Source: Streptomyces sp. MUM 178J (lineage in GTDB: Bacteria > Actinomycetota > Actinomycetes > Streptomycetales > Streptomycetaceae). From it: DNA of 55,360 bases. Shown in pieces: positions 3,355-46,906 of this stretch; position 1 is the first letter of the stretch; every line of letters begins with the position of its first letter. The notes below the pieces were generated by a model that saw only the letters and a list, made by a program, of their open reading frames with translations, was not told where the DNA came from and did no database searches. The DNA is taken from the NCBI RefSeq assembly GCF_022414575.1, contig NZ_JADWYQ010000042.1, positions 1 to 55,360 on the forward strand, written 5' to 3'. Made by a program: the position numbers and the translations under genes.

Positions 3355-4113
3355 ATGACCAGCCACGACACACCGTCATCCGAGTCCGCGACCGCAGCCG
3401 GCGCAGGGCGGCCGGGCGGTCCCGCGCCCGCGCCGTACGGAACGCCCGAAGCGCCACGCGTCTCCGTGCGCGGGGAGGCCCGACTGGAGTTCGATCCGGA
3501 GATCGCCCGGCTCGCCGTCACCGTCAAAGCCCGTGGGAGGGACCGTCGCACCGCCCTGGAAGACCTCACCCGCCGCAACGCCGCCGCCCTTGAGTTGATC
3601 AAGAGCTATGGCGAGGCCGTCGAGAAACTGGAGACCGGGGCCTTCTGCGTCACCCCCGAACTCACCCGGCACGGTCGCGAGGACCGTGTACGCGCCTACC
3701 ACGGCCGAGTTCACATCACCGCCGAGCTCCGCGACCTCACCGTCGTCGGCGAGCTGGCCACCCAGCTCGCCGATCTCGAACTCACCCATGTCGACGGCCC
3801 CTGGTGGGCGCTGCGCCCCGACTCGCCCGCTCATGGGGAAGCGCGCCGCCAGGCCGTCCGGGAAGCCGTGCAGCGCGCCCGCGAGTACGCCGACGCGCTC
3901 GGTGCGCGACTCGCGGCGCTCGTCGAGCTCGCCGATCTCGGCGCGGAGAACGCGGCGCCGTACGGGGAGTCTCCGGCGTTCGGCGGCGCCTTCCGGTCCG
4001 CGCCCGTCGCCGCGGCGGCGGAGGCTGCGCCCGCCCTCGATCTCGAACCGCAGCGCCAGACCGTCTACGCCCAGGTCAATGCGCGCTTCACCATGACCCC
4101 GCCGCAGCTGTGA
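3355..4113 (+). CDS. SIMPL (DUF541) domain protein
   Basis: A 252-residue protein of the SIMPL/DUF541 family, whose bacterial members (YggE/BP26 type) are poorly understood and are linked to oxidative stress or envelope functions. The first 40 residues are low-complexity (Pro/Ala/Gly). The conserved fold begins at VSVRGEARLEFDPEIARLAV and ends in the typical TVYAQVNARFTM strand. There is no signal peptide or membrane segment, so it is probably cytoplasmic. The ATG at 3355 is preceded by GGGAG with 8-nt spacing; upstream GTG/TTG codons lack a ribosome site. It is monocistronic, followed by an AT-rich promoter region for pyk. Confidence 0.75.
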   Translation: MTSHDTPSSESATAAGAGRPGGPAPAPYGTPEAPRVSVRGEARLEFDPEIARLAVTVKARGRDRRTALEDLTRRNAAALELIKSYGEAVEKLETGAFCVTPELTRHGREDRVRAYHGRVHITAELRDLTVVGELATQLADLELTHVDGPWWALRPDSPAHGEARRQAVREAVQRAREYADALGARLAALVELADLGAENAAPYGESPAFGGAFRSAPVAAAAEAAPALDLEPQRQTVYAQVNARFTMTPPQL

Positions 4114-4159
4114 GCCGAAGGCCCGGCGCAGCGGTCCGGGGGGTCGTGCATGCTCATCA

Positions 4160-5694: not shown

Positions 5695-5830
5695 CCTCCC
5701 GCCGGTGTGCGGGCGGATGAGCCGACTGCGCCAGGCGTTCGACCCGTCGGCCCGGGTGTTCGACCTGCGGAGACCGGGCGAACGACGGAAGGCCACGCTC
5801 TAAAGCGTGACCTTGGAAATACAGAGAACG

Positions 5831-5903
5831 TACCCCGGGTGGGATTCGAACCCACGCTGGATGGTGTTTGAGACCATTGCCTCTACCGCTGGGCTACCGG
5901 GGC
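5831..5903 (-). tRNA. tRNA with CAA anticodon (Leu by decoding) and a short variable loop
   Basis: Read on the minus strand, this 73-nt gene folds as a full cloverleaf. It has a 7-bp acceptor (GCCCCGG with CCGGGGT), a D-arm with GG at 18-19, anticodon stem ATGGT/ACCAT with loop CTCAAAC, a five-base variable region CCAGC, T-arm GTGGG-TTCGAAT-CCCAC and discriminator A. CCA is not encoded. The anticodon CAA reads the leucine codon UUG, but the molecule has a class I variable region, whereas bacterial leucine tRNAs normally have a long class II arm. Confidence 0.9.
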
Positions 5904-6005
5904 CCCTTAGAAACGAAGGGAGGCGGTGACCCTTCGTGACCTAACCATACAGGAGCTGGGTAGGCTCATGGGGAGCAGTACCAGCCCCGCACCGAGGAGC
6001 CCTGA

Positions 6006-43680: not shown

Positions 43681-44412
43681 GTGGCGAAACTCAATCAGAT
43701 CATCGCAGTGGAGAAGGGCGTCAAGTCCAAGGCGCACCAGGACCTGACGGCGGCCCACCACGGCCTCCAGAAGCCCGCGCTGCTCGTCGGCATCTCCCGC
43801 ACGTACCAGCCCAAGGACGAGGAGGGCGAGCAGTTGCCGCCCGAGTCCACCAGGGTCCAGGTCAAGGCGGAGGACGCGCTGCGCGACACCGCGAAGACGC
43901 TGACCCGGCTGTTCGATGTGACCGCCACCAAGGACTGGGCCAACTGCGCCGCCCGCGCGGATGTGACGGTGGACGGGCGAGTGCTGCTCGGCGAAGTGCC
44001 GGTGGCCTATCTGCTCTTCCTGGAGAAGCAGCTTGCGGACCTCAACACGTTCGTGCGCAAACTCCCCGTCCTCGACGCCTCGGAGTCCTGGACCCAGGAC
44101 CCGTCGACCGACGCATGGAAGACGGAGGCCGTGCGCACGGTCCGCACGAAGAAGGTGCCGCGCAACCATGTCAAGGCGGAGGCCACCGACAAGCACCCGG
44201 CCCAGGTGGAGGTGTACTACGAGGACATACCCGTCGGCTACTGGACGACGGTGAAGTTCTCCGGGGCCCTCCCGGCCCGCCGGGTCAACGAACTGCTGGA
44301 CCGTGTGGAGAAGCTCCAGCAGGCCGTGAAGTTCGCCCGAGAGGAGGCGAACGGCACGGAGGTCGTCGACCAGCGGGTGGGCGACGCCGTGTTCGGCTAC
44401 CTGTTCGGGTAG
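43681..44412 (+). CDS. DUF7873-type conserved protein, predicted DNA-damage inducible
   Basis: A 243-residue soluble protein that begins AKLNQIIAVEKGVKSK, has a conserved-looking centre (LFDVTATKDWANCAARADV, TFVRKLPVLDASESW) and a Lys/Arg-rich stretch TVRTKKVPRNHVKAEATDKH, and ends in a coiled-coil-like VNELLDRVEKLQQAVKFAREE. From memory it belongs to DUF7873; no catalytic motif is recognised. There is no signal peptide or membrane segment. The leaderless damage promoter predicts induction by DNA damage. It lies directly upstream of two permuted tRNA-like elements, so RNA binding or processing is a reasonable guess, not shown by sequence. Confidence 0.8.
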   Translation: MAKLNQIIAVEKGVKSKAHQDLTAAHHGLQKPALLVGISRTYQPKDEEGEQLPPESTRVQVKAEDALRDTAKTLTRLFDVTATKDWANCAARADVTVDGRVLLGEVPVAYLLFLEKQLADLNTFVRKLPVLDASESWTQDPSTDAWKTEAVRTVRTKKVPRNHVKAEATDKHPAQVEVYYEDIPVGYWTTVKFSGALPARRVNELLDRVEKLQQAVKFAREEANGTEVVDQRVGDAVFGYLFG

Positions 44413-44426
44413 CCTTGCAGACTCCT

Positions 44427-44446
44427 CGGCCGCCTGTGTGCGGCCG
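44427..44446 (+). terminator. Hairpin just after the DUF7873-type gene
   Basis: CGGCCGC/GCGGCCG, a 7-bp perfect stem with loop CTGTGT, begins 15 bp after the stop codon. It could end the mRNA or separate it from the downstream RNA by processing. Confidence 0.6.
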
Positions 44447-44485
44447 GGGTGCGCGAGGAGCGCAAGCTGACGCTGAAGCTTGTCG

Positions 44486-44575
44486 TGATCGTGCGGTTCC
44501 AGTGGAGGTTCGAGTCCTCCTCCCGGCACTCGACGGGCCGGGGTAGCCCAACCTGGCAGAGGCAGACCGCCGTCA
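44486..44575 (+). ncRNA. Permuted tRNA-like element 1 (class I form)
   Basis: All parts of a tRNA are present but the 3' half precedes the 5' half. In order: anticodon-stem 3' strand GCGGTT (44493-44498), variable CCAGT, T-arm GGAGG-TTCGAGT-CCTCC (44504-44520), acceptor 3' strand TCCCGGC and A (44521-44528), linker with CTCGA, acceptor 5' strand GCCGGGG (44537-44543), TA, D-arm from GCCC with loop AACCTGGCAGA (G18G19), A26, and anticodon-stem 5' strand GACCGC (44565-44570). The acceptor pairs 7/7 (one G-U) and the anticodon stem 6/6 (one G-U). The D-arm and variable loop resemble the CAA tRNA at 5831-5903. No CCA is encoded and the anticodon loop is split. Confidence 0.65.
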
Positions 44576-44611
44576 ATCTCAGACTATTGCTCCAGACTCA
44601 GCATTCGCCGC

Positions 44612-44720
44612 TCATCGCCGGATCGACCGGGGCCGGGCCCTGGGACGTCGAAATGCCGGTTCAACTCCGGCCCGCGCAGCTCGATGCGCGGTGGTCCAAA
44701 GGCAGGACGCGGCGACATGA
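44612..44720 (+). ncRNA. Permuted tRNA-like element 2 (class II form, long variable arm)
   Basis: This has the same permuted order as element 1: anticodon-stem 3' strand TCGCCG (44615-44620); a 34-nt variable arm that folds on TCGAC/GTCGA (44623-44627 with 44647-44651); T-arm GCCGG-TTCAACT-CCGGC (44655-44671) fitting TTCRANY; acceptor 3' strand CCGCGCA (44672-44678); linker GCTCGA; acceptor 5' strand TGCGCGG (44685-44691); TG; D-arm GTCC-AAAGGCA-GGAC; G26; anticodon-stem 5' strand CGGCGA (44710-44715). The acceptor is 7/7 Watson-Crick and the anticodon stem 6/6. The linker shares CTCGA with element 1. Confidence 0.65.
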
Positions 44721-44774
44721 TGACTGACCCGGTCTCTCAAGCGTGCCGGCGTGTGATCGTGAGCGGCATCTACA

Positions 44775-44805
44775 GGGCTCGGGGGTTGGCTACGCCCCCG
44801 GGCCC
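44775..44805. terminator. Hairpin at the end of the kinase gene and RNA locus
   Basis: An 11-bp stem GGGCTCGGGGG with CCCCCGGGCCC (one G-U, 9-base loop) overlaps the stop codon of the minus-strand kinase gene and may end transcription from both sides. Confidence 0.7.
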
Positions 44806-45920
44806 GCTCCTGCGTCCGCTTCCGGCGCGACCGCCAAAGGCTGCGCGTCCGACGCCTTCCACGGACGGCCGCCGAGTGCCGTGACCGCCTCCGCGCCTGC
44901 CCGGCAGCCGTCCGCCGCCGCCCGTGCCGCGTCCCCGCCGGCCAGCCAGGCCGCCAGAAAAGCGCCGGTGAAGGCATCACCCGCGCCCGTGGAATCCACC
45001 GCCTGCGCCCGGATGCCGGGGACTCGGGCCGTGACCGCGCCGGACTGCGCCACCAGCGCGCCCCGCGCGCCCAAAGTGACCACGGTCAACGGGACGATCC
45101 GGCTGAGCTTCGCCGCGGCGTCTGCCGCGTCCGGAAGGCCGGTGAGCAGCCGGGCCTCGTCGGCGTTCGGGAGCAGGACGTCCACGCCGTCGATCGCGGC
45201 CAGTGTGCGGTCCACCCCGAGCGCCGCGATGAACCCGGTGGAAGCCGGATCCACGCTCGTCGTCACACCCCGGCTGCGTGCCGTCTCCAGAGCGAGCCGG
45301 ACCAGCCCGCGGCCTGCATCGGAGAACAGCAGATAGCCCGACACATGGAGATGCCCGATCCCCTCCAACAGCGAGGGCGACCAGTCTGCCGGCGCCAGGC
45401 GCAGCGCTGCGCCGTTGTCAGTGAGGAACGTCCGCTCGGCTGTCGCGTCCACAAGCGCGATCACCGTTGCGGTGGGTGCGTCCCGGTCGGCGACCAGGAG
45501 CGGCCGCACCCCCGCTGCCAGCAGCTGCCCCTCGTGCCAGGCCGCGTCGCCGGCCCCCACCTGCGCGAGGACGCGCACATCGGTCAGGCCCCAGCGAGCC
45601 GCCCAGCAGGCCGCGTTCGCGCCCGCACCGCCCGGCAGGATCCTGATGACCGCCTCCGTGTCGGTCCCGCGGGCCAGCGGTGCGCGGTGGAGGGCGACGA
45701 CGTCCGTGACGACGTCCCCCGCCACCAGCAACCCGCCGCCGGTGCTCTCCTGTTCGCTTCTCCGCTCGCTCGGCGGAGTGCCGGGAGTCGTTGCCCTCTG
45801 CTGCCCGGCTGCCTCGCGCGCGTCGCTTGGGGTGTTTGTCTGTTCGCTTCTCCGCTCGCTCGGCGGAGTGCCGGGAATCGTTGCCCTCTGCCGCCCGGCT
45901 GCCTCGCGCGCGTCGCTCAC
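44790..45920 (-). CDS. PfkB-family carbohydrate kinase (probable pseudouridine kinase) with duplicated N-terminal extension
   Basis: A 376-residue kinase whose GTG overlaps the psuG stop (GTGA). The PfkB fold begins only near residue 62 (LLVAGDVVTDVVALHRAPL), with PGGAGANAACWAARWG and the catalytic DSTGAGDAFTGAFLA. Pairing with psuG implies phosphorylation of pseudouridine to its 5'-phosphate. The first 60 residues are two near-identical 30-residue units (SDAREAAG-QRAT-PGTPPSERRSEQ) produced by a 78-bp DNA direct repeat. They are not part of the normal fold and are probably an inserted intergenic repeat read in frame. Confidence 0.85.
   Translation of the reverse strand: MSDAREAAGRQRATIPGTPPSERRSEQTNTPSDAREAAGQQRATTPGTPPSERRSEQESTGGGLLVAGDVVTDVVALHRAPLARGTDTEAVIRILPGGAGANAACWAARWGLTDVRVLAQVGAGDAAWHEGQLLAAGVRPLLVADRDAPTATVIALVDATAERTFLTDNGAALRLAPADWSPSLLEGIGHLHVSGYLLFSDAGRGLVRLALETARSRGVTTSVDPASTGFIAALGVDRTLAAIDGVDVLLPNADEARLLTGLPDAADAAAKLSRIVPLTVVTLGARGALVAQSGAVTARVPGIRAQAVDSTGAGDAFTGAFLAAWLAGGDAARAAADGCRAGAEAVTALGGRPWKASDAQPLAVAPEADAGAGPGA
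45750..45917. repeat. 78-bp direct repeat, period 90 bp, at the psuG/kinase junction
   Basis: The copies at 45750-45827 and 45840-45917 differ at two positions. Each contains the inverted repeat CTCCGC-TCGCTCG-GCGGAG, like many Streptomyces intergenic palindromes. The 90-bp period keeps the kinase frame open. Confidence 0.95.
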
Positions 45921-46810
45921 TGGGCGGCCGCGATGTGCGCGGCCAGCCGTGCGTTTCCGCGGACGGCCGCCAGATTGGCCTCCAGCGACGCGCCCTCGGT
46001 GCGGCGCATCAGATGGTCCAGCAGGAAGGGGGTGACGGCCTGTCCGCTGATCCCCCGCTCCCGGCACTCGTCGAGCGCCTCCGCCAGCACCCTGTCGTGC
46101 AGTTGGGGATCGAGCTGCTCGTCCTCAGGGACCGGCTGCGCGACAATCAGCGCCGATTCGGGTCCGCCGAGCCTCTCCTGAGCGTGCATCACCGCCGCCA
46201 CCTCCGCCGGGGACCGGACCGTCCAGTCGACGGGCTCTCCCGAGGACCGCAGATAGAAGCCGGGGAACCGGTCGACCCCGTAGCCGAGGACGGTCACGCC
46301 CAGCGTCTCAAGCCGCTGCAACGTCGCCGGCACGTCGAGGACGGACTTCACCCCCGCGCATACGACGGTGATCCCGGTCTGCGCGAGCAGCCGCAGATCG
46401 GCCGACTCGTCATGGGTCTCCGTCCACTCGCGGTGCACGCCGCCCAGGCCACCGGTGGCGAAGACCCGGATCCCCGCCCGCGCGGCCAGGAAGGCCGTCG
46501 CCGAGACGGTCGTCGCCCCGCTCGCCCGGGCAGCCAGCGCGGGCGCCAGGTCACGGTGGCCGAGCTTGCGTACGGAGTCGTCCGCGGCAACCCGCTCCAG
46601 CTGGTCCTTGTCCAGCCCGACGCGTACCTGTCCGTCCAGTACGGCGATGGTGGCGGGAACCGCCCCTCCGGCCCGTACGAGCGCCTCCAGTTCCTCGGCG
46701 ACGGTCAGATTGCGCGGCCGCGGCAGCCCGTGGGCGATGATCGTCGACTCAAGGGCGACGATCGGACGCCTGTCGGCCAGCGCTTCCTGTACTTCCTCGG
46801 TGAGCAGCAT
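45917..46810 (-). CDS. psuG: Pseudouridine-5'-phosphate glycosidase
   Basis: A 297-residue PsuG (IndA family), which reversibly splits pseudouridine 5'-phosphate to uracil and ribose 5-phosphate. Signatures are VALESTIIAHGLPRPRNL at the N-terminus, VRKLGHRDLAPALA, ATGGLGGVHREW and VCAGVKSVLDVPATLQ with the catalytic Lys. AGGGA lies 6 nt before the ATG. With the overlapping kinase gene it forms a two-step pathway for salvaging pseudouridine from RNA turnover. Confidence 0.95.
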   Translation of the reverse strand: MLLTEEVQEALADRRPIVALESTIIAHGLPRPRNLTVAEELEALVRAGGAVPATIAVLDGQVRVGLDKDQLERVAADDSVRKLGHRDLAPALAARASGATTVSATAFLAARAGIRVFATGGLGGVHREWTETHDESADLRLLAQTGITVVCAGVKSVLDVPATLQRLETLGVTVLGYGVDRFPGFYLRSSGEPVDWTVRSPAEVAAVMHAQERLGGPESALIVAQPVPEDEQLDPQLHDRVLAEALDECRERGISGQAVTPFLLDHLMRRTEGASLEANLAAVRGNARLAAHIAAAQ

Positions 46811-46906
46811 GTCCCATCCCTGGCACGGCGACCGGCGGCTCAAACGTCTGTCCGGCCGTCATGGGTGCGGCGGTGTATCCCGGGCGTCCGGTTAAGGTGA
46901 CCCGCC

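Follow-up and report, generated by a model that had tools for sequence, protein, structure and literature searches.

A DUF7873-Linked RNA of Streptomyces and Phages Carries Permuted tRNA-like Modules and Looks Like a Relative of Bacterial Y RNAs

Introduction

Does a bacterial locus in which the 3′ half of a tRNA is written ahead of its 5′ half encode a tRNA, or an RNA that imitates one? The question is raised by a 55,360-base stretch of Streptomyces DNA (the whole of which is called the window here). A preliminary description of this DNA proposed a circularly permuted tRNA gene and named a YrlA-type mimic as the main alternative. We know of no tRNA-splicing or joining route in bacteria. The statement that no permuted tRNA gene has been described from bacteria was not contradicted by literature searches, but related cases exist in the form of permuted tmRNA and YrlA. 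According to PMC3978253, permuted tmRNA genes exist in bacteria, and in T. pendens a CCA is encoded together with an intervening sequence that is very short. Modification of YrlA by tRNA enzymes and its role as a tether between Rsr and PNPase are reported in PMC8394870, and Y RNAs of mycobacteriophages in PMC12282133.

Results

Two permuted modules were located with a strict descriptor consisting of a T arm, acceptor 3′ strand, linker, acceptor 5′ strand, U8, and D arm. The descriptor was loosened once to admit the 3-bp D stem of the first module, element 1; its earlier form matched only at 44655. On its plus strand the whole window contains two such arrangements, at 44504 and 44655; the same scan found no permuted module on the minus strand. 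Re-reading of the sequence agreed with the scan. Element 1 runs 5′ to 3′ from the T arm through the acceptor 3′ strand, a 9-nt linker, the acceptor 5′ strand, and the D arm to the closing stem (Table 1), and the permuted order, seven acceptor pairs, six stem pairs, and linker length given in the preliminary description were all confirmed. The linker occupies the position where phage relatives often encode CCA.

Table 1. Coordinates of the RNA, its parts, and the adjacent gene
Feature	Position	Strand	Sequence or remarks	Evidence
DUF7873 (PF25283) gene	43681-44412	+	GTG start; constant neighbor of the RNA	Pfam, 401 bits
Conserved structured RNA	44413-44805	+	about 390 nt; extent and ends inferred	alignment of 80 Streptomyces loci and the window
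Element 1, permuted tRNA-like module including closing stem	44493-44570	+		descriptor, register test, covariation
Element 1 closing (anticodon-like) stem	44493-44498 with 44565-44570	+	GCGGTT with GACCGC; five Watson-Crick pairs and one G-U	
Element 1 variable loop		+	CCAGT	read from sequence
Element 1 T arm	44504-44520	+	GGAGG-TTCGAGT-CCTCC	read from sequence, descriptor
Element 1 acceptor 3′ strand	44521-44527	+	TCCCGGC	read from sequence, descriptor
Element 1 linker	44528-44536	+	ACTCGACGG (9 nt): A73-like base, then CTCGACGG	
Element 1 acceptor 5′ strand	44537-44543	+	GCCGGGG, followed by TA	read from sequence, descriptor
Element 1 D arm	44546-44563	+	stem GCC/GGC	read from sequence, descriptor
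Conserved core between the two arms	44571-44615	+	TCAATCTCAGACTATTGCTCCAGACTCAGCA	alignments
Element 2 arm	44616-44751	+		R1 match 44609-44754, 122.2 bits (window itself in the R1 alignment)
Element 2 arm, outer helix P3	44616-44621 with 44746-44751	+		strong covariation
Element 2 arm, helix P4	44625-44631 with 44728-44734	+		weak covariation as drawn
Element 2 closing stem	44646-44650 with 44710-44714	+		
Element 2, second permuted tRNA-like module	44655-44708	+		descriptor, covariation
Element 2 T arm	44655-44671	+		
Element 2 acceptor 3′ strand	44672-44678	+		
Element 2 linker		+	GCTCGA	
Element 2 acceptor 5′ strand	44685-44691	+		
Element 2 D arm	44694-44708	+		
3′ hairpin	44775-44805	+	GGCTACG loop; likely RNA end	

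The closing stem is outside the criteria of the descriptor. Over 110 copies of element 1, its best register is that of canonical tRNA (a variable loop of 5 nt and a single base following the D stem), at which 3.32 of 5 pairs form, compared with 2.33 when partners are swapped. The closing stem of element 2, with a 4-nt variable loop, gave 3.90 pairs versus 2.65 after swapping. A complete anticodon arm with its loop was not found; the outer side of the closing stem runs into other arms. ARAGORN mis-reads part of element 1 as a tRNA-??? at 44443-44529. With cmscan, a YrlA match whose register is the same was obtained at 44480-44589; at 21.0 bits (E 0.05) it stays below the gathering score of 69. 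When the single window sequence was folded to minimum energy, the T arm formed and the element 1 acceptor strand paired elsewhere; the structure proposed for element 1 rests on sequence comparison, not on energy.

Alignment of 80 Streptomyces loci with the window (20 of the 81 rows were viewed) places both modules within about 390 nt of continuous conservation. The aligned region consists of a 5′ hairpin, element 1, a core with the motif TCAATCTCAGACT...GCTCCAGACTCAGCA, a long arm tipped by element 2, and a 3′ hairpin. GGCTACG-type hairpins are present at 85 of 86 Streptomyces loci and 67 of 112 viral/other loci; the corresponding control counts were 1 and 3 for reverse complements, 3 and 5 for one shuffle, and 0 and 12 upstream. 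In the window the 3′ hairpin overlaps the end of a convergent PfkB-type kinase frame (44790-46067, minus strand) located downstream of the RNA, and could terminate transcription from both sides. An indigoidine synthase A-like (PF04227) frame, 45917-46843 on the minus strand, is also nearby.

Both modules are present in 62 of 86 Streptomyces copies. The remaining 24 lack element 1 and have element 2 only. In the 21 of these that could be read by script at this place, a short insert stands there; by eye, most are a plain hairpin on the same GCGG-type base. The stem therefore belongs to the larger RNA and the tRNA-like tip is optional. Element 1 is the optional tip and element 2 the constant one in Streptomyces.

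Relatives covary in the permuted order. In a 59-row alignment of element 1, 86.4% of cells are paired (slid versions, ≤51.9%), the covariation score is 0.504 against 0.156 for shuffled and ≤0.205 for slid alignments, and 20 of 21 pairs show two-sided changes. The element 2 arm (48 rows) has 83.5% of cells paired (slid, ≤42.8%) and a score of 0.671 (0.224 shuffled, ≤0.167 slid); double changes occur in 32 of its 34 pairs, a count that by itself is not beyond shuffling (mean 29.9, with 32 reached by 44 of 500 shuffles). Rows were picked for linkers of ≤14 nt and low similarity. The alignments hold 58 of 63 (element 1) and 47 of 52 (element 2) listed rows, each plus the window, with five omitted from each. 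The scan required the T arm, acceptor, and D arm, so part of their high pairing reflects selection. The closing stems, which played no part in row selection, are paired in 59.2% (element 1) and 68.5% (element 2) of cells. Helix P3, likewise absent from the selection, is paired in 94.4%, with double changes in six of six pairs. Only 48.4% of cells are paired in helix P4 as the window would draw it; either its register varies, or the helix is incorrect for many of the rows.

The RNA lies directly behind the DUF7873 gene, on the same strand. Modules were sought by the descriptor within 650 nt downstream of DUF7873 and found at all 86 Streptomyces loci and 99 of 112 viral/other loci; 68 of the latter have two modules, 31 have one, and 13 have none by the strict descriptor. 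Reverse complements and one mononucleotide shuffle per locus gave no module in either group (0/86 and 0/112), and the 650 nt upstream gave 0/86 and 4/112. The Streptomyces loci include the window and the best 80 of at least 544 stretches encoding a relative; they are closely related, and their counts are not independent. From 445 viral stretches with relatives, 80 were kept, and one Nonomuraea record is counted in the viral/other group. Distinct sequences number 85 of the 86 and 102 of the 112; four further loci were too short to score and two (L096 and L195) were not placed by the script. One viral contig has an in-frame stop in its DUF7873 frame (L131, 3001-3726).

By tblastn, DUF7873 occurs in 73 of 50,697 phage records, with hosts among Arthrobacter, Gordonia, Rhodococcus, Pseudanabaena, Microcoleus, Rhizobium, Klebsiella/Serratia, and Vibrio. 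Eight annotated phage records were examined, none from Vibrio phages; they have an unannotated stretch of about 410-1160 nt behind DUF7873, which in Gordonia phage Fryberger begins after one additional short annotated frame. Seven of the eight contain a module in this stretch, where the records annotate no RNA. The eighth, a Microcoleus phage (L088), has no module behind DUF7873 by the descriptor. A HEARO RNA (3941-4150) and then a 1278-nt frame directly follow its DUF7873 gene, and a 31.8-bit match to R1, a covariance model of the element 2 arm, lies at 5791-5924, with no intact module there by the descriptor. An inserted element may have parted the RNA from the gene in this phage. Among cellular genomes, DUF7873 was found in 70 of 150 of the window's genus, in 72 of 147 of the wider order (three of five genera), and in seven of 396 across the phylum, all seven belonging to the window's genus. 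It was also found in a Nonomuraea record and in the named control, Deinobacterium chartae. The predicted RNA is common to Streptomyces and phages.

R1, which was built partly from Streptomyces copies, was used to probe the coupling between RNA and gene, with 20 candidates per genome scored. At E 0.001, 142 of the 150 genomes of the genus are matched. Matches of ≥62.8 bits, however, occur in exactly the 70 genomes with DUF7873, and in all 70 the strong match is on the contig and strand of the gene, 139-344 nt behind it. R1 is matched end to end there in 69 genomes and over positions 17-129 in one. Among those listed and compared, the next matches (≤59.3 bits) are either modules only, near TROVE, or tandem ordinary tRNAs. 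The modules-only matches lie about 1.2-1.4 kb from TROVE (Ro60) matches. From the places compared, we take the weaker matches in general to be of these two kinds, modules linked to Ro60 and tRNAs in tandem. The genus holds Ro60-linked YrlA-type RNAs and the DUF7873-linked RNA at different loci.

Six Ro60 places (L244-L249) gave 10 YrlA matches of 31.6-54.9 bits in cmscan, and R1 detected two permuted modules at each. The stronger module at each locus is matched over R1 positions 38-105 or less; only one of the six second modules (L245, 47.2 bits) is matched end to end. All YrlA matches listed at these places are below the Rfam gathering score, and the Rfam model seems to under-score these Ro60-linked members. 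Since they fall short of 69 bits just as the window does, the RF02553 gathering-score test separates the DUF7873 RNA from Ro60-linked RNAs poorly. Of the 150 genomes, 80 have a TROVE match, which in nearly all cases listed spans about 60 of 442 positions; TROVE/Ro60 gave no match in the window's own genome. The DUF7873 protein is small and has a compact, confidently predicted fold, for which fold comparison returned no RNA-binding relative and no recognized fold relative.

The linkers were inspected for CCA. A linker consisting of CCA and a few bases is the form to be expected of a CCA-ended substrate of RNase P. In 68 of 143 distinct viral/other modules, CCA comes directly behind the discriminator base, the single base that follows the acceptor 3′ strand; at the other linker offsets listed (up to 19) it occurs at most four times. 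Only 12 of 88 distinct Streptomyces modules have it. In viral/other element 2 modules, a U immediately precedes the acceptor 5′ strand in 34 of 36 with CCA versus 23 of 41 without; element 1 shows no such link (20/33 and 19/34), and canonical tRNAs of the same loci have the U in 194 of 382. Forty-nine viral/other loci have a module together with canonical tRNAs within the fetched flanks. At 40 of these, fewer than half of the canonical tRNAs encode CCA, yet 34 of 67 modules there do; module CCA does not track that of the neighboring tRNAs (11/16 versus 34/67, Fisher p 0.27). The window's genome encodes CCA in 10 of 35 distinct tRNA genes examined (loci of 30 of 70 tRNA matches).

Discussion

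The DUF7873-linked RNA looks like a new relative of the bacterial Y RNAs with a different protein partner, and not like a working tRNA gene. At the level of sequence, the analysis establishes the RNA, its two modules, their covariation, its tight pairing with DUF7873 in the genus, and its occurrence in both Streptomyces and phages. The YrlA-type mimic that had been offered as the alternative came much nearer than a tRNA gene, except that the neighboring gene encodes DUF7873 and not Ro60. In the Rfam consensus of YrlA (RF02553), the tRNA-like module has the same 5′-to-3′ order as element 1. In both RNAs a permuted module tips a long stem, and the six Ro60 loci also have two modules each. The neighbor of YrlA is TROVE, whereas here it is DUF7873; YrlA is reported to be 90-150 nt long (PMC8394870), whereas here a putative single RNA shows continuous conservation over about 390 nt comprising two arms and a core. 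Encoded CCA is found in many phage copies of the DUF7873-linked RNA and also in two of 10 Ro60-linked modules found by the descriptor. We file the RNA with the permuted tRNA mimics, as one that would work like a Y RNA.

We consider it probable, with some reserve, that DUF7873 and the ~390-nt RNA form a Y-RNA-like ribonucleoprotein, in which either of the two arms of the RNA can carry a permuted module at its tip. DUF7873 would bind the core or the arms, as their adjacency suggests. The tRNA-like tips may recruit or occupy enzymes that recognize the acceptor/T-arm half of tRNA, the candidates being tRNA modification enzymes, RNase P, or PNPase as in Rsr-YrlA-PNPase. The RNA would then be a tether or decoy rather than a carrier of amino acids. 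Its most likely role would be that of a scaffold, with DUF7873 on one side and tRNA-recognizing enzymes on the tips, by analogy with the Rsr-YrlA-PNPase assembly reported in PMC8394870. We infer transcription, binding, partner enzymes, and processing of the RNA.

The ribonucleoprotein has to be weighed against other readings of the same evidence. The strongest of these, which we hold only tentatively, is that one transcript is cut at its two modules by the tRNA-processing machinery into a multi-piece RNA with two acceptor ends, held by DUF7873; the complex would then be a new class of ribonucleoprotein in bacteria and phages. In phages, RNase P would cut before the acceptor 5′ strand, trimming would stop at CCA, and the linker would be removed; the free CCA ends would present tRNA-like ends as in permuted (two-piece) tmRNA. 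The fixed offset of CCA, its association with U in element 2, and its retention beside canonical tRNAs that mostly lack it are in keeping with such processing. However, CCA could be a loop motif read by a protein, element 1 lacks the U-CCA link, the canonical tRNAs have a weaker preference for U, module CCA does not follow that of neighboring tRNAs, and CCA is infrequent in Streptomyces, whose linker in element 2, of the GCTCGA type, has the look of a closed loop. It is unlikely that the RNA is a true YrlA family member that merely has no Ro60 nearby. Its module order and the paired modules at all six Ro60 loci would fit. So would the scores of 34.9-44.7 bits that the Rfam YrlA model gives to viral DUF7873 RNAs at five of nine loci searched, a range overlapping that of the Ro60-linked RNAs of the genus. 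On the other side stand the absence of a TROVE match in the window's genome, the score of element 1 (21.0 of 69 bits), the lack of any YrlA match listed for element 2 up to E 5, and arms that differ outside the modules, being matched by R1 end to end beside DUF7873 and mostly in part at Ro60 loci.

A decoy or counter-defense RNA, which phages would carry among their tRNA genes to occupy host nucleases that attack tRNA and which Streptomyces would have acquired, appears equally doubtful. The 49 viral/other loci with modules and canonical tRNAs are compatible with it, and an anticodon-nuclease decoy role has been suggested for YrlA (PMC7790460), but the modules have no anticodon loop, the part that anticodon nucleases cut, and a distribution over 70 of 150 genomes of the genus is in itself no sign of defense. 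The original proposal, a circularly permuted gene yielding a working tRNA, is very improbable and found no support. All cloverleaf parts bar the anticodon loop are present in permuted order, as such a gene requires, but what lies beyond the closing stem is arms of a larger covarying RNA in place of that loop, and more than a quarter of Streptomyces copies (24/86) dispense with element 1. We give as little weight to a remnant of a tandem tRNA pair. R1 does match such a pair in this genome (contig 28, 73776-73914, 54.2 bits, over tRNAs 73767-73839 and 73845-73917); against this, no complete tRNA halves lie beyond the module, and the closing stem is preserved through paired changes. A tandem pair could nevertheless be the evolutionary origin of the module.

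Among known permuted RNAs, two-piece tmRNA is similar in that its acceptor 3′ half precedes the 5′ half with a linker between them; it differs from the present RNA, which has a D stem and two modules, and phage Phendrix also has a separate tmRNA. Among distinct element 1 modules, the G3-U70 pair characteristic of tmRNA is rare (one of 66 viral/other, none of 51 from Streptomyces). The module order is shared with the circularly permuted tRNA genes known from algae and from the archaeon T. pendens, but the anticodon loop is missing here.

These results separate the Y-RNA type of tRNA mimicry from Ro60, placing a permuted module beside an uncharacterized protein family without TROVE. Roughly half of the genomes sampled from the genus have the RNA, as do phages that infect actinobacteria, cyanobacteria, rhizobia, and Klebsiella. 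DUF7873 gains a testable partner, and the many natural variants, some with encoded CCA, offer a means of asking what tRNA enzymes do with an end-joined tRNA.

A minor observation concerns a tRNA of the window. Bacterial leucine tRNAs are generally long-armed; the tRNA at 5830-5903 on the minus strand, which ARAGORN assigns to Leu (CAA anticodon), is unlike these, with 74 nt and a short class I variable loop, and its D arm resembles that of element 1.
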